From: an uncultured Pseudomonadales bacterium
GTDB lineage: Bacteria; Pseudomonadota; Gammaproteobacteria; Pseudomonadales; Azotimanducaceae
Reading direction: 5' to 3'
NCBI GenBank assembly: GCA_938017975.1
Contig: CALIKQ010000006.1
Span: forward strand, 62,001 to 126,000
Length of the DNA stretch: 64,000 nt
Shown here: positions 21,978 to 32,422 of the stretch, one piece after another
Layout of the letters: each line of letters begins with the position of its first letter
How positions within the stretch are numbered: the stretch's first letter is position 1
Notes under the pieces: generated by a model
The model's database searches: none
Told to the model about the DNA's origin: nothing
Seen by the model: only the letters and a program-made list of their open reading frames with translations
Position numbers and translations under genes: made by a program

Positions 21978-22951
21978 CAACACCCCTGCTGGAAGTCGAG
22001 AATCTAAAAATGCACTTTCCGGTCAAGGGCGGCTTGTTCAACCGTGCCAAGGCCAAAAATTATGCTGTTGATGGCGTCAACCTAACCATCAACCCGGGTG
22101 AAACACTCGGCTTGGTCGGTGAATCCGGCTGTGGAAAGTCAACTCTAGGGCGGTGCATCACCCGCTTGTATCGTCCAACTGACGGCGTTATTAACTTCAA
22201 AGGCACGAATATTGCGCAACTGAGCAGCCGACAACTTTTGCCTTATCGACAAAATGTTCAAATGATTTTCCAAGATCCCATGGAATCTCTCAATGCTCGC
22301 CATACCGTCGGCGAACTTTTAGAAGAGCCCTTTATCATTCATGGAATCGGCGATCGGCAAAGTCGTCAAAAATCGGTCGCGGGATTGCTCGATACGGTCG
22401 GCCTCCCAGCTCGATCGGCCACAAGGTACCCCTTTGAGTTTTCTGGAGGGCAGCGGCAAAGAATCGGAATTGCGCGAGCACTGGCACTCAAACCGGAGCT
22501 GGTTATTTGCGATGAACCCGTGTCTGCTTTGGATGTTTCTATCCAGAGTCAAATATTGAACCTCCTCATGGACCTTCAGCGGGAATTCAATTTAGCCTAC
22601 CTCTTCATCGCGCACGATCTAGCGGTTGTGAAGCATATTTCAGACCGTGTCGCGATCATGTACCTCGGCAAGATCAGCGAACAAGCCAGCAGTGAAGCGA
22701 TCTATGCTGCCCCGCAACATCCCTACACGCAATCTCTCATCGCAGCCATTCCAAACCCGGACCCACACATCAAAGTCGAGCGAGTCCCCCTACAGGGTGA
22801 TGTACCGTCGCCGATTTCACCGCCCCCGGGATGCTCCTTTCACACTCGCTGTCCTCAGGCAACCGATCGCTGCGCAGTGGCGGCTCCCGAGCTGATTCCA
22901 ACCGATGATCAACATTGGGCAGCCTGTCACCTCGTAGGACCTCGACCGTGA
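21974..22951 (+). CDS. Peptide ABC transporter ATPase (DppF-like)
   Basis: The second ATPase, about 325 residues: [14 protein letters not shown] (Walker A), IFQDPMESLNARHTV, FSGGQRQRIGIARALA (signature), ICDEPVSALDVS (Walker B) and C-terminal PPPGCSFHTRCPQATDRC. ATG 21974 overlaps the previous stop as ATGA and has AGGTGG 8 bases upstream, so I prefer it to ATG 21953. With its neighbour it replaces the two halves of YejF. Confidence 0.9.
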   Translation: MTTPLLEVENLKMHFPVKGGLFNRAKAKNYAVDGVNLTINPGETLGLVGESGCGKSTLGRCITRLYRPTDGVINFKGTNIAQLSSRQLLPYRQNVQMIFQDPMESLNARHTVGELLEEPFIIHGIGDRQSRQKSVAGLLDTVGLPARSATRYPFEFSGGQRQRIGIARALALKPELVICDEPVSALDVSIQSQILNLLMDLQREFNLAYLFIAHDLAVVKHISDRVAIMYLGKISEQASSEAIYAAPQHPYTQSLIAAIPNPDPHIKVERVPLQGDVPSPISPPPGCSFHTRCPQATDRCAVAAPELIPTDDQHWAACHLVGPRP

Positions 22952-23388
22952 CGTCCATTACTCGCCGCCGCACCAGTGTTTTATGCCAACGAGAAAATTC
23001 GCTTCTCATGATCGAGCTTGAAGACCCGACAACCTTTAAGCGGTTTTGGTCCTTGCCTGGCGGCATGATCGAACAAGGGGAAAGCCCTGAGTCCTGTGCC
23101 GTTAGAGAAACCTTTGAGGAGACTGGATACGCAATCCATTTGACCAGTGAAGGTTTAAAAACAAACTATCTCTTTCGTTGGAACAAACACCACTATGCAT
23201 GCGAGTGCCATTGGTTTCTCGGCGCGCTCAACGAAGACCATGAGCCCGCAGTCGTCACCGATGCGGATTATCTGCTCGGGACTCAGTGGATTCCACTGCC
23301 TAGGGTGGCGGCGCTATTAAGCTACCACCCTCATATCCAAGAAGAATCGCTCAAACTTCTTCAAAGCGGCCGCATCAATTCGGTATAA
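22948..23388 (+). CDS. Nudix hydrolase (NudJ-like)
   Basis: A 146-residue Nudix enzyme. The full box GxxxxxExxxxxxxREUxEExGU is present (GMIEQGESPESCAVRETFEETGY). The C-terminus (EESLKLLQSGR) resembles phosphatase NudJ, which handles thiamine and nucleoside phosphates, but substrate is uncertain. GTG 22948 overlaps the ATPase stop as GTGA and has AGGA just upstream, so it is translationally coupled to the transporter operon. Confidence 0.82.
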   Translation: MTSITRRRTSVLCQRENSLLMIELEDPTTFKRFWSLPGGMIEQGESPESCAVRETFEETGYAIHLTSEGLKTNYLFRWNKHHYACECHWFLGALNEDHEPAVVTDADYLLGTQWIPLPRVAALLSYHPHIQEESLKLLQSGRINSV

Positions 23389-23389
23389 T
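23360..23389 (+). promoter_or_regulatory. Probable promoter for the SIS gene
   Basis: TATAAT at 23384-23389 is a perfect -10; TTCAAA at 23360-23365 is a weak -35 at 18 bp. It lies across the Nudix stop codon, so the SIS gene and the folate genes can be expressed separately from the transporter operon. It also argues that the SIS protein starts downstream of this point. Confidence 0.45.
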
Positions 23390-23439
23390 TGCATCGATTC
23401 AGTGCACCCACAGCCCGCGTGGCGAAAAAGGACCCACCT

Positions 23440-24042
23440 TTGGATATTCGAGAAAACATGAAGCGGATCATGGACGCTGAAGCCGCAGCCATCCAGCAAG
23501 TCTCAGTCACGGAAGATTTTGAAGCCAGCGTGCAGCTATTGCTTGATACCCCGGGTCGAGTCATCACCACAGGGATCGGCAAAGCGGGATTTATCGCACG
23601 AAAATTTGCCGCAACCTTAGCATCAACTGGTACACCTGCTTTTTTTATTCACCCGGCGGAAGCGGGTCACGGTGATCTCGGAATGGTGACAACTCGTGAC
23701 ACCATTGTTGCATTTTCAACGAGTGGCAAATCCAACGAAGTCATCCAAATGCTGCAAATCGCTCAACAACTCGGCATCGGTCAAGTGATTGGTGTGACAT
23801 CCCATAAGGATTCTCCCATGAGGGGGTTTTGCAAGCTGATACTTGATATGGGGCCAAATATCATCGAGCCTTGTCCACTCTCTCTCACGCCCAGTGCCTC
23901 TATTGCCGTCATGTTAGCCATCAGCGATGCGATCGCGCTCACGCTGATGTCTCTCAAAGACTTCACCAAAGAAGATTATGGGCGCAGACATCACAGTGGA
24001 TATTTGGGCAGTATTACCCGCACGCCATCAGACGCACAATAA
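23440..24042 (+). CDS. SIS-domain sugar-phosphate isomerase (KpsF/GutQ-like, no CBS domains)
   Basis: A 200-residue SIS protein resembling arabinose-5-phosphate isomerase (KdsD/KpsF/GutQ), which makes the precursor of Kdo. It has TTGIGKAGFIARKFAATLASTGTPAFF, HPAEAGHGDLGM, EPCPLSLTPSAS and a C-terminal HH.GYLG in place of SHPGGxLG. The CBS pair of KdsD is absent, so it is about 120 residues shorter. TTG 23440 has AAGGA 7 bases upstream; ATG 23458 and GTG 23419 are alternatives. TTG 23389 lies inside the -10 and is unlikely. Confidence 0.72.
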   Translation: MDIRENMKRIMDAEAAAIQQVSVTEDFEASVQLLLDTPGRVITTGIGKAGFIARKFAATLASTGTPAFFIHPAEAGHGDLGMVTTRDTIVAFSTSGKSNEVIQMLQIAQQLGIGQVIGVTSHKDSPMRGFCKLILDMGPNIIEPCPLSLTPSASIAVMLAISDAIALTLMSLKDFTKEDYGRRHHSGYLGSITRTPSDAQ

Positions 24043-24056
24043 TCAGGCGATGCGTC

Positions 24057-24962
24057 GTGTCTTCCTTTAATCTATCAAAACTCGCCAATAAGTATTTTTT
24101 AGAGGCCGCACTCAGTGCCAAGGACCTTGCGCATGTCCCCAACGTTTTAGCGTTGATCGCAAGCGACGACGAGCCTTCTCTGGCCTATGCTCGAGCAACG
24201 CGCCAACGATTTGTCCAGGCTGGCTTCAAGTATGAGCTGCGCAAAGTTAATCGGCTCGAGCTTGAACAGGAAATACTTCGGGCCAATGACGATCCTGAGA
24301 TTCATGGCATCTTCATTTATTATCCTATTTTTGCGAATCGACAGGACGATTTTTTAAGAAACCAAGTCCACTACACCAAAGACATCGAAGCCGGCAGTCA
24401 ATATTGGACTCGCAAACTCTACGCCAATGAGCGGCATGCGGCAGATGATCAACCCGGTAAAAAGGCAGTGTTACCCTGCACACCTCTGGCGATTGTGAAG
24501 CTGCTGATCGAACTTGGTGTTTACCAGGATATCTCTGACGATAACTCACAGCCCTTGCTGGGACGTACCGTCACCATATTCAATCGCAGCGAGGTCATCG
24601 GACGCCCCTTAGCCGTCATGCTCTCTAACGATGGCGCCCGCGTTCTGTCCTTTGATGAACATGGCCCCTTGGAATTTATCAATGCCCAACCTCGAGAAAT
24701 CAAGATTGGTCGGTCCGAGGCGCTGATCGCAGCAGATATCGTAATCACAGGTGTTCCGAATACCAGCTTTCCACCCATCACAGCCTCAGAAATCAGACCA
24801 GAAACGGCTTGCATCAACTTTTCAAGCGTCAACAACTTCAGCGACGACATCACCACACAGACCGCACGCTTTTTGCCCCGGGTTGGCCCAATGACGGTTG
24901 CCATGTGTCTGCGTAACACCCTGAGGCTTTATCAAAACTTTCATCAGGAATCGAGCCTATGA
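24057..24962 (+). CDS. FolD-family methylenetetrahydrofolate dehydrogenase, Mtd1-like and probably monofunctional
   Basis: A 301-residue member of the FolD family. FolD normally oxidises 5,10-methylene-THF and then hydrolyses methenyl-THF using a Lys in YxxxK. Here that motif reads Y44-A-R-A-T48, so the Lys is Thr, and the Gln of VQLPLP is Tyr88 (IFIYYPIF). Both changes are those of yeast Mtd1, an NAD-dependent dehydrogenase lacking cyclohydrolase. NRSEVIGRPLAVMLSNDGA, VITGVP, CINFSSVNNFSDD and RVGPMTVAMCLRN also match Mtd1. The Asp after VLSF points to NAD. GTG 24057 fits the family length; the next gene overlaps by 4 bp. Confidence 0.82.
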   Translation: MSSFNLSKLANKYFLEAALSAKDLAHVPNVLALIASDDEPSLAYARATRQRFVQAGFKYELRKVNRLELEQEILRANDDPEIHGIFIYYPIFANRQDDFLRNQVHYTKDIEAGSQYWTRKLYANERHAADDQPGKKAVLPCTPLAIVKLLIELGVYQDISDDNSQPLLGRTVTIFNRSEVIGRPLAVMLSNDGARVLSFDEHGPLEFINAQPREIKIGRSEALIAADIVITGVPNTSFPPITASEIRPETACINFSSVNNFSDDITTQTARFLPRVGPMTVAMCLRNTLRLYQNFHQESSL

Positions 24963-25543
24963 GGGCCAATACGTCGATCGGCGATTGGCTAGATGCCCTG
25001 GCCAGCCGAAACCCCACGCCAGGCGGTGGCGCCGTAGCCGCGCATCTTGGCGCGCAGTCGACGGCCTTGTTTGCGATGGTGTGCCGTTACAGCAAGCATG
25101 GGGATTTTGGTCCGCAATTCATTGCCGCGCTCGATGCCAGCACCCAACGTTTTTTAGAACTTGGCGAAGCCGACGAAGCGGCTTACAAAACGCTGATCAA
25201 ATCCCTCAAGACTGGGCGCCAAAACGGTTTTGAACCTGATCAAATCGATGCTGCCTACCTGCAAGCTGCGGAACCTCCGCTGATGATTTTTGAGTTAGCC
25301 GCCAAGATTGCGCGTCAGTTTCAAACCGTTCAAGCCTCCACCAACCAAAATCTCGCCTCAGACACAGCGATGGTTGGCCTGATGCTCGATTGCACCCTGA
25401 AATGCGCCGAGCTGAACATTCACATTAATCTCGATGCCTGCACAGATCCCGCCTTGGCTGCCCCTTATCTGGACCGGATTCAGAGTCACTCAGAGACCCG
25501 TCAGTCCCTCACTGCCATCATCACCAAGCCTTCTGCCCAGTGA
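24959..25543 (+). CDS. fchA: FTCD_C-family methenyltetrahydrofolate cyclohydrolase (FchA-type)
   Basis: A 194-residue helical protein of the cyclodeaminase/cyclohydrolase (FTCD_C) family. The N-terminus shows the typical NPTPGGGAVAAHLGAQSTAL; later come AAEPPLMIFELA and NLASDTAMVGLMLDCTL. Stand-alone members act either as formimino-THF cyclodeaminase or, like Methylobacterium FchA, as methenyl-THF cyclohydrolase. No histidine-degradation genes are near, and the gene overlaps a dehydrogenase that appears to lack cyclohydrolase (ATGA junction), so the FchA role is favoured. It probably yields 10-formyl-THF for purN and other users. Confidence 0.8.
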   Translation: MRANTSIGDWLDALASRNPTPGGGAVAAHLGAQSTALFAMVCRYSKHGDFGPQFIAALDASTQRFLELGEADEAAYKTLIKSLKTGRQNGFEPDQIDAAYLQAAEPPLMIFELAAKIARQFQTVQASTNQNLASDTAMVGLMLDCTLKCAELNIHINLDACTDPALAAPYLDRIQSHSETRQSLTAIITKPSAQ

Positions 25544-26694
25544 GACCTTTCATTTGCTGTGCGAGCTTCACGGTATGTCTTTTGCTCGTTGCCAGCTGTG
25601 GTTCAAACCGTCCATCAGAAACTTTAGATCCGGTCAGTGCAAACAGCGAGCAGAGAGCACTGAAGACTCGGCTCGAACAGGTCCTTTTTGATCAAATCGT
25701 TAAACCTCCGGTGGCACTCCCCCTTGATGAGGCGCCCTTGCGCGAACTTCGAATGAATTGCCTTGAACGCATTGAATCGAGCGTTGACACCACATTGTTA
25801 AGGGCGGACCAACAGCGCCTTCTCGATGCCCTACGATGGGCGCGAGGGGAGGCAATCAACCAGAACCAGGCCATAACTGGCCAGATCCCGGTTGGCATCG
25901 AACCCTGGCTCTACGCGCGGCTACAGCGCCTGCAGCGCACCCAATTCCCACCTGAGGTAGACACGCAGGAACGATCACATCTAATCGGCGCTGGAGACAG
26001 CGACATTCAGCAGTTTTTTGACCTGATTCAAGAAGCATTATTGACCCAGGCTCAACTCAACCCACTGACCCTTGATTATGACCGTTTGGATGCATTACTG
26101 GTCAAGCCAACCTTGCTATCAACCGACCGCGCCTTTTTCTACCAGGACAACGATTCAAGCATCCGAATCAACCGATCAATATTGCCTGATTTGGCTTGGG
26201 CAGATGCCGAAATCATCGCGCTGACCCAGGGCCTTCCGGGCCACCATTTCCTGAAATCCCAGAGTCGTTCTCCCAATTGGTTTCCTGCCCAATCAATAAT
26301 CAATCGATCGGCGATGAGTCTGTTTCTGCTCGAACGGCTCGCTGAAGAACCTTTCTACCAGACGCGCTACTCGCAAGGTGCGCACCTAAGCCACCTTACC
26401 CTCACCACCCTCGTCTATTTAAAGGCCGTTGACCCCGAACTTACGCTTGATTTTTTTGATCAGTCTTTGGGTGCGCACTCAGTCAGTCAGCCCAGATTAA
26501 AGCATGCCTTTGACCGAGCCCTAAGGAACCGCCAAACACTGATTGCAGAAGCTGAAGCCCTTAGAAGTATCGAGCGAACTGTTTTTATCAAAGGCGTTCC
26601 AATGAAGCCTACAAAACTCAACGACGATGCCCGCGCCCGCCTTGACACCCTCATCGATTCTCTGAATCTGCCGCTCAAGGCACTGAAGTTATAA
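25540..26694 (+). CDS. Lipoprotein, probably a degenerate DUF885-like protein
   Basis: A 384-residue secreted lipoprotein: signal with lipobox VASC near residues 17-20. The middle region reads IIALTQGLPGHHFLKSQ. DUF885 proteins carry HEAIPGHHLQ there, so the HE pair of the zinc site is Thr-Gln here. The later EGWALY motif is also not intact (RSAMSLFLLERLAEE). The protein is shorter than typical DUF885 members. GTG 25540 overlaps fchA by 4 bp. If related, it is probably no longer a metallopeptidase; family membership is inference. Confidence 0.55.
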   Translation: MRPFICCASFTVCLLLVASCGSNRPSETLDPVSANSEQRALKTRLEQVLFDQIVKPPVALPLDEAPLRELRMNCLERIESSVDTTLLRADQQRLLDALRWARGEAINQNQAITGQIPVGIEPWLYARLQRLQRTQFPPEVDTQERSHLIGAGDSDIQQFFDLIQEALLTQAQLNPLTLDYDRLDALLVKPTLLSTDRAFFYQDNDSSIRINRSILPDLAWADAEIIALTQGLPGHHFLKSQSRSPNWFPAQSIINRSAMSLFLLERLAEEPFYQTRYSQGAHLSHLTLTTLVYLKAVDPELTLDFFDQSLGAHSVSQPRLKHAFDRALRNRQTLIAEAEALRSIERTVFIKGVPMKPTKLNDDARARLDTLIDSLNLPLKALKL

Positions 26695-29260: not shown

Positions 29261-30787
29261 ATGAGCACCCGCATGAGCAATCTCTATCACGTTTTTTCGG
29301 AACACTTACAGCCGAAACGGCCGCTGTTGATCAACTCAAATCAAGAGTGCGAGGCGACCTACGGCGACCTTGAAACGCGCAGTGCGCAATACGCGTCAGC
29401 GCTGCTCAGCCTTGGACTTAACCCCGGCGACAGGGTGGCTGTTCAAATCGCGAAATCAATTGAGAATATCTACCTCTATTGCGGCTGTTTGCGAGCTGGG
29501 CTGATTTACTTGCCCCTCAATGCTGCCTATCAGGCCAGTGAGCTTAGCCACTTTATTACTGATGCCAAACCCAAACTCTTTGTTATCGATCCAGCCGCAT
29601 CCATTGGCCATCTTGATCAACTCGATCACCGGCCTCAAACACGAACTCTGGATCAAGACGGCCGGGGCAGTCTTCGCGATCTGGCCGATAGCAGCCCAAC
29701 TCATCCAGAGATTCATCCATCACAAGACCAAGATATCGCCGTGATTGTCTATACCTCAGGCACAACCGGCCTCCCAAAGGGCGCGATGATCAGCCATGGC
29801 AATTTGATCAGCAATGCTCGTGCCTTGCGGACGGCGTGGGGCTGGACCGATCACGACGTCATGCTGCATGCCTTACCCATCTTTCATGTCCACGGTCTTT
29901 TCGTGGGGCTGCACTTACCGCTTTTATCAAATTCTCCAATCATCTTAATGCCGAATTTTAACGCTGATGCAGTGATTGCAACCTTGCCGCTTGCCACCGT
30001 CTTTATGGGCGTGCCAACGTATTACACCCGACTGCTGAGCAGCGGAATCAAAGCGCAGGACTGCGCCAACATGCGCCTGTTTACCTCTGGCTCGGCACCA
30101 CTTCTATCCCAGACTTTTACAGACTGGGAGCAGGCAACAGGGACGACCATTTTGGAGCGTTATGGTATGACCGAGACTGGGATGAACACATCCAACCCGC
30201 TTTCGGGCGAGCGTAAAAAAGGCACGGTTGGGCCTGCGCTCCCCGGAGTAAAATGCAGAGTCGTTGATTCCTCCGGCATCGACGTAGCGGTCGGTGACAC
30301 TGGAGACCTATGGGTTAAAGGCGAGAACGTCTTTAGCGGGTATTGGCAAAACCCTGAGAAAACTGCGGAGTCTTTCACAAGCGAGGGCCCAGGTGATGGT
30401 TTTTTCAAAACTGGCGATCTTGCCAGCATCGACCCTGAGGGATACATCACGATTGTGGGGCGCAACAAAGATCTGATCATCACTGGCGGTCTGAATGTCT
30501 ACCCCAAAGAAATCGAGCTTCTGATCGATCGAATGGATGGCGTTCTTGAAAGTGCCGTGATCGGACTGCCCCATCCTGACTTTGGTGAAGCGGTCTGCGC
30601 GGTTATCGTCCCGCTTGACGGGGCTGATTGTTCACAAGAGGCCATCATTGCAACGCTCAAGGCCGATATTGCAAACTTCAAGATCCCAAAGCACGTTTTC
30701 TTCATTCCTGAATTACCGCGAAATACCATGGGCAAGGTTCAAAAAAACGAACTCCGCACACGCTTTTCGCCGCCATCGTCATCTTGA
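29261..30787 (+). CDS. matB: Malonyl-CoA synthetase (MatB-like acyl-CoA ligase)
   Basis: An AMP-forming acyl-CoA ligase of about 508 residues. A3 motif YTSGTTGLPKGA, A5 ERYGMTETGM and A10 PRNTMGKVQK are intact. The LPIFHVHGLFVGLHLPLLS and ATVFMGVPTYYTRLL stretches match malonyl-CoA synthetases. MatB activates free malonate. No other malonate genes are adjacent, so the substrate is inferred from motifs only. ATG 29261 is used; ATG 29273 is equally possible because neither has a clear ribosome site. The stop overlaps the purN TTG start. Confidence 0.78.
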   Translation: MSTRMSNLYHVFSEHLQPKRPLLINSNQECEATYGDLETRSAQYASALLSLGLNPGDRVAVQIAKSIENIYLYCGCLRAGLIYLPLNAAYQASELSHFITDAKPKLFVIDPAASIGHLDQLDHRPQTRTLDQDGRGSLRDLADSSPTHPEIHPSQDQDIAVIVYTSGTTGLPKGAMISHGNLISNARALRTAWGWTDHDVMLHALPIFHVHGLFVGLHLPLLSNSPIILMPNFNADAVIATLPLATVFMGVPTYYTRLLSSGIKAQDCANMRLFTSGSAPLLSQTFTDWEQATGTTILERYGMTETGMNTSNPLSGERKKGTVGPALPGVKCRVVDSSGIDVAVGDTGDLWVKGENVFSGYWQNPEKTAESFTSEGPGDGFFKTGDLASIDPEGYITIVGRNKDLIITGGLNVYPKEIELLIDRMDGVLESAVIGLPHPDFGEAVCAVIVPLDGADCSQEAIIATLKADIANFKIPKHVFFIPELPRNTMGKVQKNELRTRFSPPSSS

Positions 30788-31398
30788 ATTCCCCAGTGGT
30801 TCAGCGCGCGAAAGCTAGACTTGCGGTGCTTGTCTCAGGTCGGGGCTCGCATCTGCTAAATCTTCACCGAGCCTGCGAGTCAGAATCATTAAACGCCAAG
30901 GTGGTTCTGGTTGTCACCAACCAGCCTAATTGCGGCGCCATGCAAATTGCCCTTGACCAAGGCCTAGAGCGAAGCGCGCTACCATCGGCGAAGCGTTCTA
31001 GCGAGGAAAGCATCGATCTTGCACTGAGAGCGCTATTACAACGCCACGACATTGATTGGGTCATCACCGCCGGTTACCTCAAAAAAATTGGCCCGCTGAC
31101 ATTGGCCGCTTTTGATAACCGAGTGATTAATATTCATCCCTCTTTACTTCCAAAATATGGCGGGCAAGGCATGTATGGCAGGCACGTTCACGAAGCCGTA
31201 ATTGCTGCCGGCGAGCGAGAATCGGGGGCGAGCGTCCACTACGTGAATGCATGCTTCGATTCAGGCGCGGTCATTGCGCAAAGTTCGATCGCAATTAATG
31301 AAGGTATGACGGCAGAAGCGCTCGCAGAGCGCGTTCTTAAGGTTGAGCATGCACTTCTACTTTCAACGCTAAAAGGACTCCTTAATGTCAATGAATAA
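30784..31398 (+). CDS. purN: Phosphoribosylglycinamide formyltransferase
   Basis: Transfers a formyl group from 10-formyl-THF to GAR in purine synthesis. About 204 residues with VLVSGRGSHL (phosphate loop), the catalytic NIHPSLLPKYGG (Asn and His) and YVNACFDSGAVIAQ containing the catalytic Asp. The usual partner purM is absent. TTG 30784 overlaps the previous stop as TTGA; GTG 30796 is an alternative. It overlaps the PRPP-synthetase-like gene by 14 bp, and both feed purine synthesis. Confidence 0.88.
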   Translation: MNSPVVQRAKARLAVLVSGRGSHLLNLHRACESESLNAKVVLVVTNQPNCGAMQIALDQGLERSALPSAKRSSEESIDLALRALLQRHDIDWVITAGYLKKIGPLTLAAFDNRVINIHPSLLPKYGGQGMYGRHVHEAVIAAGERESGASVHYVNACFDSGAVIAQSSIAINEGMTAEALAERVLKVEHALLLSTLKGLLNVNE

Positions 31399-32422
31399 GC
31401 AAACTTCACCTGAAGGCCGCAATCCGCGAGCGCCCATTGCCCTCATGACCTGCGAATCGGGCCGTCCCTTTGCCAGTCGAGTTGCCGAGTATCTCGGCAG
31501 TCCACTTCTGCCCACCAAAGAAATTTGGTTCGCCTGCGGGGAGGGAAAGCTCGAAATTGAAGCCAACGTTCGGGGGCATGATCTCTACATTTTTCAAAAT
31601 GTGGCCGGCCGACAGGATGAAAGGTCAATTTATGAGCGTTTTATCATGCTCCTTCATGCCGTAGAGGCTGCAGCACATGCGGACGCTCAATACATTACCG
31701 CGGTCTTGCCCTACTACCCAGGCGCTCGGCAAGACAAACGCAAGGGCCGAACGCGAGAAGGAATCAGCGCGAGCTTGTTTGCACGAATGCTGCAGAGCGC
31801 TGGTGCCGACCGAGTTGTCACCGTTGAAATTCACAACGACGCCATCGCAGGCATGTTTAACCCAAGACAGACCCACCTAGAGAATATTTTTCTGACCAAA
31901 CAATTCGTGCCCTGGTTAAAAGCCAGTGGTCTCACCGGGGGCGTGGTGGTGTCACCGGACGTGGGTTATCTTGAAAATGCCCGCATTTATGCAGAAGAAC
32001 TCTCTGCAGAACTTGCCGCACTCTCCAAAGAGCGTGACTACTCGCAACCAAATACTGTCTTTCGATCAAACTTGATTGGTGAGGTCGCAGGTAAAGATAT
32101 TTTGCTCGTGGACGACATTATTGATACCGCAGGCTCGGTGGTCGCCGCCATCGAGACCCTCAAAGATGAAGGTGCTCAGAACATCACCGCAGCCTGTGTT
32201 CACCCGGTACTCAGCGATCCAGCTTGGGATCGTCTTAATTCGCTCCATGCCCGTGCCGAACGCGAGGGCTGGGCGTTCAAATTGATTGGTACAACTTCCA
32301 TTGCCCATGTGGATGCACCATCCTGGTATTTTGAATTTCAAATAGAGAAGTTGGTCGCCGCCGTTTTGGAAAAAATTAATTTGCGCGGTAGCGTAACCGG
32401 TGTTCAAAACCATCCGGGTTGA
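31385..32422 (+). CDS. Ribose-phosphate pyrophosphokinase-like protein (divergent PRPP synthetase)
   Basis: A 345-residue PRPP synthetase homologue. VLPYYPGARQDKR, the PRPP/ribose-5-phosphate loop VVVSPDVGYLENAR and DDIIDTAGSVV (PRPP loop) are present. The sequence differs from the standard prs product: the SPDVGG loop reads SPDVGY, and the C-terminus has an unusual insertion around SIAHVDAPSWYFEF. ATG 31385 is supported by AAGGA 7 bases upstream. Its position after purN suggests a purine link. The main prs is usually next to ispE, so this may be a second copy. Confidence 0.78.
   Translation: MSMNKQTSPEGRNPRAPIALMTCESGRPFASRVAEYLGSPLLPTKEIWFACGEGKLEIEANVRGHDLYIFQNVAGRQDERSIYERFIMLLHAVEAAAHADAQYITAVLPYYPGARQDKRKGRTREGISASLFARMLQSAGADRVVTVEIHNDAIAGMFNPRQTHLENIFLTKQFVPWLKASGLTGGVVVSPDVGYLENARIYAEELSAELAALSKERDYSQPNTVFRSNLIGEVAGKDILLVDDIIDTAGSVVAAIETLKDEGAQNITAACVHPVLSDPAWDRLNSLHARAEREGWAFKLIGTTSIAHVDAPSWYFEFQIEKLVAAVLEKINLRGSVTGVQNHPG

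Follow-up and report, generated by a model that had tools for sequence, protein, structure and literature searches.

Two overlapping genes in the window (the whole 64,000-nucleotide stretch of DNA that was analysed, G000:C6:62001-126000) encode a FolD-family protein of the yeast Mtd1 type and a protein of the FTCD_C family. Judging from sequence and genome comparison, we give a probability of about 0.85 to the reading that the pair is a split methylene-THF dehydrogenase (probably NAD-dependent) and methenyl-THF cyclohydrolase that replaces FolD. We infer both enzyme activities and the NAD preference: the Mtd1-type protein, having lost the Lys/Gln pair thought to open the ring in FolD, would convert 5,10-methylene-THF to 5,10-methenyl-THF, most likely with NAD, like yeast Mtd1, and the FTCD_C protein would hydrolyze methenyl-THF to 10-formyl-THF, like FchA. 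The pair would replace the bifunctional FolD in one lineage of Gammaproteobacteria and would feed 10-formyl-THF to purine synthesis and initiator-tRNA formylation.

Both proteins have clear homologs, the ring-opening residues of FolD are missing, the dehydrogenase carries an insert, the two genes keep a fixed adjacency, and neither FolD nor a formiminotransferase was found in the 16 genomes searched that carry the pair. The observations of an earlier first-pass annotation, made from the letters of the window, are confirmed by this comparison. Its interpretation, an NAD-linked oxidation of methylene-THF to formyl-THF with a separate cyclohydrolase, is supported by comparative evidence.

The gene pair and its distribution

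The window belongs to an assembly of 3.19 Mb in 79 contigs (96.5% complete). The dehydrogenase gene (24057-24962, forward strand, GTG start) encodes 301 amino acids with matches to PF00763 and PF02882; it was assigned to the Mtd1 type by its match to the yeast Mtd1 structure 1edz, by its place in a phylogenetic tree and by its structural model. Its frame is joined by an ATGA overlap to that of the FTCD_C gene (24959-25543, forward strand), which encodes a 194-amino-acid protein (PF04961, E 8e-32) that we propose to be an FchA-like methenyl-THF cyclohydrolase. Both the overlap and the family of the second protein had been called in the first-pass annotation, and both calls hold.

Directly 5' of the dehydrogenase gene is a SIS-domain gene (23389-24042, forward strand; PF01380), found 5' of the pair in 15 of 17 loci, and before it a NUDIX gene (22915-23388, forward strand; PF00293), found there in 8 of 17 loci, the flanks being short. 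These two genes (22915-24042) have no evident link to folate. Directly 3' of the FTCD_C gene, with a 4-base overlap, is a frame (25540-26694) whose product resembles a lipoprotein by eye; it is without a Pfam match, and relatives of it lie 3' of the pair in 11 of 17 loci.

We searched 58 genomes, the window's own and 57 relatives. Sixteen genomes carry an Mtd1-type gene (E <= 5e-99), 35 a canonical FolD, seven neither and none both (PF02882 search). The Mtd1-type gene is the only FolD-superfamily match over the PF02882 cut-off in each of the 16. FTCD_C is present in exactly the same 16 genomes and in none of the remaining 42. The pair also occurs in at least one further locus, L033, from an uncultured gammaproteobacterial metagenome assembly, whose dehydrogenase branches within this group in the tree. 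In each of these 17 loci, the distance from the Mtd1 stop to the nearest candidate FTCD_C start is between -11 and +10 bases; the FTCD_C frame of G012 is short (model positions 1-120 of 182), and in G036 the Mtd1-type and FTCD_C search matches fall on two contigs. The two-gene arrangement, which the first-pass annotation had proposed looking for in other genomes, thus recurs in all 16 Mtd1-type genomes among the 58, and in L033. The 16 genomes are not independent, and one inherited event may explain the pattern.

A scan of the window's own assembly for a canonical FolD, also proposed in the first-pass annotation, found none at the assembly's 96.5% completeness. A second PF02882 match there, on contig C11, was considered as a hidden canonical FolD and rejected: it scores 19.5 bits, below the cut-off of 27, and reads by eye as an SDR-type dehydrogenase. 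The genomes with neither a FolD nor an Mtd1-type gene are G004, G006, G009, G011, G030 and G034 (62-91% complete) and G049 (98%). G049 comes from the order-level sample, and FolD over the cut-off, an Mtd1-type gene, FTCD_C and Fhs were all not found in it.

At E <= 1e-15, no Mtd1-type protein was found beyond the window's own genome among 369 class-level and 398 phylum-level genomes (own included). These samples overlap, were evenly drawn and contain none of the other 15 Mtd1-type genomes; being thin as well as overlapping, they can miss small groups. L035, L036 and L037, the only other matches at this threshold, were considered as more Mtd1-type enzymes and rejected, their Lys and Gln being present. 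Among the plasmid and phage matches listed (20 of 100 and 18 of 18, respectively), identity was only 21-27%.

Supply of and need for 10-formyl-THF

Candidate users of 10-formyl-THF are widespread among the Mtd1-type genomes. Formyl_trans_N is present in all 16, and AICAR formyltransferase, which uses 10-formyl-THF, in 15, the one miss being G012 (72% complete). The window itself contains a purN-like formyltransferase gene about 5 kb 3' of the pair (30784-31398, forward strand; PF00551, E 2e-41), named from its length and family and presumed to be a user of 10-formyl-THF. In nine of the 16 genomes, the contig with the Mtd1-type match also carries a short purN-like Formyl_trans_N frame, 3.3-9.1 kb away from that match. 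Directly after the purN-like gene of the window, and likewise about 5 kb 3' of the pair, is a ribose-phosphate pyrophosphokinase-like gene (30784-32419 for the two genes). The AICAR formyltransferase matches of G028 (G028:C33:78326-79069) and G016 (G016:C101:53733-54506) begin only at model positions 76 and 68, respectively; G028 has a separate N-terminal AICAR formyltransferase match on another contig, possibly a different PurH arrangement.

Fhs scored over its cut-off in eight of the 16 genomes, the window's own included, and was not found in the other eight, among them G015 (97% complete), G016 (96%), G022 (99%) and G028 (99%). In these four genomes, searches that covered FolD, Fhs and FTCD_N turned up no way to 10-formyl-THF besides the pair, so that an oxidative split FolD would be the economical reading there. 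We infer the oxidative direction of the pair on this basis, strongly only for relatives without Fhs.

The presence of Fhs in half of the genomes also raises a different use of the same two enzymes, compatible with the split-FolD reading. In genomes like the window's, Fhs would activate formate, and NADH would then be spent in reducing methenyl-THF to methylene-THF, so that the pair would run mainly in the reductive direction. Fhs gives the window's own genome an alternative source of 10-formyl-THF, so the pair could run in either direction there, and both reactions are stated to be reversible for MTHFD2/MTHFD2L (PMC11064299). We nevertheless consider a mainly reductive role rather unlikely: the eight genomes in which Fhs was not found, four of them at least 96% complete, do have users of 10-formyl-THF, and the pair should run oxidatively in those eight.

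The dehydrogenase and its FTCD_C partner

The first-pass annotation had noted long Mtd1-like stretches in the FolD-family protein, and the searches bear this out. Among PDB sequences, phmmer ranks yeast Mtd1 (1edz) first at E 2.2e-52, about 40 orders of magnitude ahead of the best solved FolD (E 6.1e-11). The window's protein is 37.6% identical to yeast Mtd1 over 266 columns. Against the NCBIfam models its best FolD score is 67.4 bits vs a cut-off of 411, and it reached the cut-off of none of the 25 families listed out of 30.

We aligned 49 sequences, of which 45 remained after the repeat copies L001, L034, L047 and L063 were left out; none was dropped by score. The 45 rows comprise 17 bacterial Mtd1-type proteins (the window's own, those of 15 relatives and L033), yeast Mtd1, and 27 other FolD-family proteins that include the FolD of 14 of the 35 canonical-FolD genomes. 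At the position of the FolD Lys (YxxxK), all 17 bacterial Mtd1-type proteins and yeast Mtd1 have Thr (Thr48, codon 24198-24200, forward strand), vs Lys in 26 of the 27 others. At the position of the FolD Gln (VQLP), the same 17 and yeast have Tyr (Tyr88, codon 24318-24320, forward strand), vs Gln in 26 of 27. Both replacements had been read by eye in the first-pass annotation as those of Mtd1, and the alignment places no Lys at the catalytic position. The lone exception among the 27 is the FolD of G715, which is itself encoded beside an FTCD_C gene. The position of the pterin-binding Asp (KDVDG) is Glu in all 17 and in yeast Mtd1 (Glu111, codon 24387-24389, forward strand), vs Asp in all 27 others.

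In FolD, the Lys is described as the general acid/base in ring opening, the Gln as positioning the Lys, and the Asp as positioning the pterin (PMC3338484). The combination that marks a bifunctional FolD, the Lys of YxxxK with its Gln partner, is absent from the window's protein. A computational study of MTHFD2 finds no clear catalytic role for the Lys, without excluding one (PMC9173628). The role of the Lys being disputed in that study, loss of the Lys alone is no proof that cyclohydrolase activity was lost; loss of Lys and Gln together makes it likely, not certain.

The Mtd1 type also differs from FolD in the nucleotide-binding region. All 17 bacterial proteins, and none of the 27 others, have an insert of about 13 residues after the second Rossmann strand (24657-24698, forward strand): the spacing between fixed motifs is 52 residues in the Mtd1-type proteins vs 39 in the others, and 64 in yeast Mtd1, which has 25 extra. 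The 2000 paper on the structure of yeast Mtd1 reportedly describes extra strands in the nucleotide-binding domain. The corresponding feature is present here, as the 13-residue insert and two extra short strands, 203-208 and 211-214, in an AlphaFold2 model of the window's protein (mean pLDDT 78.4, pTM 0.81; residues 90-104 and 125-127 below 50). The closest fold to this model is again 1edz (Z 26.4, rmsd 3.6 over 274), with the next match at Z 22.5. In a maximum-likelihood tree of the 45 rows, a branch supported at 100/100 separates the 17 bacterial sequences and yeast Mtd1 from the others; the tree was midpoint-rooted, contains a single fungal row and carries long-branch and unusual-composition warnings, yeast Mtd1 being among the flagged sequences.

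The second Rossmann strand of the model (195-200) ends at Asp200 (codon 24654-24656, forward strand), which is shared by all 17 and yeast Mtd1 and by one of the 27 others. From the sequence, this Asp would be expected to favor NAD. Since the one exception, L036, is a canonical FolD-type protein, the Asp is not exclusive to the Mtd1 type, and a protein that uses NADP, or both cofactors, would make the pair a split FolD with no change of cofactor. We regard this as improbable given that Asp200 and the insert are held in common with yeast Mtd1, which is NAD-dependent according to its PDB title.

FTCD_C (PF04961; 110.8 bits vs a cut-off of 24.5) is the sole Pfam match of the partner protein at E <= 0.001. 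Its nearest solved relatives by sequence are TM1560 (1o5h, annotated as a cyclodeaminase), 7vg4, which is FchA of Methylobacterium extorquens, and 1tt9, an FTCD. In fold, 1o5h (Z 22.5) and 7vg4 are about equally close to its model (pLDDT 88.2), the latter at Z 21.7 with an rmsd of 2.7 over 190; the next match is at 11.1. Of the seven FTCD_C proteins that are encoded beside MtdA in other genomes of the phylum, six share 27-29% identity with the window's protein; no match at E 1e-3 was obtained with the seventh (L044) or with the FTCD_C protein of G715. All seven are closer to the partner protein of the deepest-branching relative, G016, with 37-42% identity.

The first-pass annotation had called the partner FchA-type. 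The family and fold of FchA stand, as the match to 7vg4 indicates, and membership by the curated FchA model (NF045657) does not: the window's protein scores 67.7 bits vs a cut-off of 275. The partners in L015 (139) and L018 (167) and the G715 protein (190) also score below the cut-off, and the MtdA-paired protein of L038 (333) scores above it. With this cut-off missed, we describe the window's protein as FchA-like in function and stop short of assigning it to FchA.

The same result bears on the role for which FTCD_C is named, and which the first-pass annotation had set out as the alternative to a cyclohydrolase, formimino-THF cyclodeaminase. The formiminotransferase partner domain (FTCD_N) was found in none of the 16 Mtd1-type genomes, in a search that also covered 14 control genomes and was positive for Thermotoga maritima, and so these 16 genomes have no known source of formimino-THF. 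A cyclodeaminase beside an Mtd1-type protein that works alone or still opens the ring is very improbable. It is favored by the family name, by the annotation of 1o5h, the nearest solved protein in both sequence and fold, and by the missed FchA cut-off. It is opposed by the missing formiminotransferase, by the finding of no canonical FolD in any of the 16 genomes with FTCD_C, and by the FTCD_C genes that elsewhere adjoin MtdA or a Lys-less FolD.

Parallel arrangements and known systems

FTCD_C scores over its cut-off in 16 of the 398 phylum-level genomes, the window's included. In seven of these (G445, G504, G549, G557, G572, G592 and G675) it adjoins MtdA, an assignment made by homology for all seven and by PF09176 for the two on which that model was tested. 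No canonical FolD was found in the seven with PF02882; matches just over the cut-off (28 bits) in G445 and G557 fall on the MtdA gene next to FTCD_C. In G715 (L045 541-2058), FTCD_C adjoins a FolD in which Ala replaces the Lys and Phe the Gln, followed by a 5-formyl-THF cyclo-ligase; no other FolD passes the cut-off in this genome, whose stated completeness is 100%, and the arrangement is apparently an independent split. By analogy, the occurrence of FTCD_C beside MtdA in seven genomes and beside a FolD lacking both Lys and Gln in one points the same way as the pair described here.

A canonical FolD and an FTCD_C-family protein are both present in G328, G669, G701, G711, G717, G757 and G759, so that membership in FTCD_C is not in itself a sign that FolD has been lost. 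The FTCD_C proteins of these FolD-keeping genomes have an altered PGGG motif in all six loci where it is readable: PGCG in L046, L048, L050 and L051, PGSG in L052 and LGGG in L049; the motif is not readable in L053, the seventh. It is intact in the window's FTCD_C protein and in L038, L044 and L045. As far as the motif was read, FTCD_C proteins of the PGGG type thus occur, in three settings, where a normal FolD is lacking.

The MtdA-Fch pairs, the fchA-folD pairs of acetogens, yeast Mtd1 and the principle of the split are already known. NCBI conserved-domain text on the NAD-binding domain of Mtd1 is said to mention some bacteria, so that databases may already include Mtd1-type proteins of bacterial origin. 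In the titles and abstract openings of the literature matches listed, we found no description of a bacterial lineage where a yeast-type Mtd1 paired with FTCD_C stands in for FolD, which does not prove absence. As far as its accessible text goes, a 2024 survey treats MTD1 as fungal, calls its placement difficult and does not name a bacterial MTD1 (PMC11064299).

We tentatively suggest, with more doubt than confidence, that a gammaproteobacterial lineage swapped FolD for a yeast-type Mtd1 and an FchA-like module, from a source shared with fungal Mtd1 through inter-domain transfer. If this is true, gaining an FTCD_C partner where FolD-type ring opening is lost would be a rule that has arisen at least three times in the phylum, with MtdA, with the Lys-less FolD and with the Mtd1 type. 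The lineage seems to manage without the widespread two-in-one FolD and would offer natural experiments on three questions: why one protein usually combines the dehydrogenase with the cyclohydrolase, what the FolD Lys does, a matter disputed in the MTHFD2 study (PMC9173628), and where fungal Mtd1 came from, its placement being given as difficult in the 2024 survey (PMC11064299). Routine annotation would probably label the pair 'bifunctional FolD' and 'cyclodeaminase'.

The pair resembles each of the known systems in part. Yeast Mtd1 (1edz/1ee9) is the closest solved relative of the dehydrogenase and shares with it the Thr/Tyr/Glu/Asp set and the extra residues after the second Rossmann strand, but the protein described here is bacterial, is encoded directly 5' of an FTCD_C gene and is the only FolD-superfamily protein over the cut-off in its genome. 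Yeast also has C1-THF synthases. The seven MtdA-FTCD_C pairs, which we take to be the MtdA-Fch pairs of Methylobacterium-type methylotrophs, likewise combine a separate dehydrogenase next to FTCD_C with no canonical FolD found; their MtdA, however, is of another family (PF09176, tested on two of the seven), outside the FolD superfamily. Acetobacterium-type acetogens are described as having fchA, for methenyl-THF cyclohydrolase, beside folD (PMC6925170). To judge from that description, they too place a methenyl-THF cyclohydrolase gene next to the gene for a FolD-family dehydrogenase, but within an acetogen cluster with fhs1 and metV (PMC6925170). The G715 locus (L045) is alike in pairing FTCD_C with a FolD-family protein devoid of the ring-opening residues; unlike the Mtd1 type, its dehydrogenase is placed with FolD in the tree, on a long branch, has no insert and keeps the Asp of KDVD.
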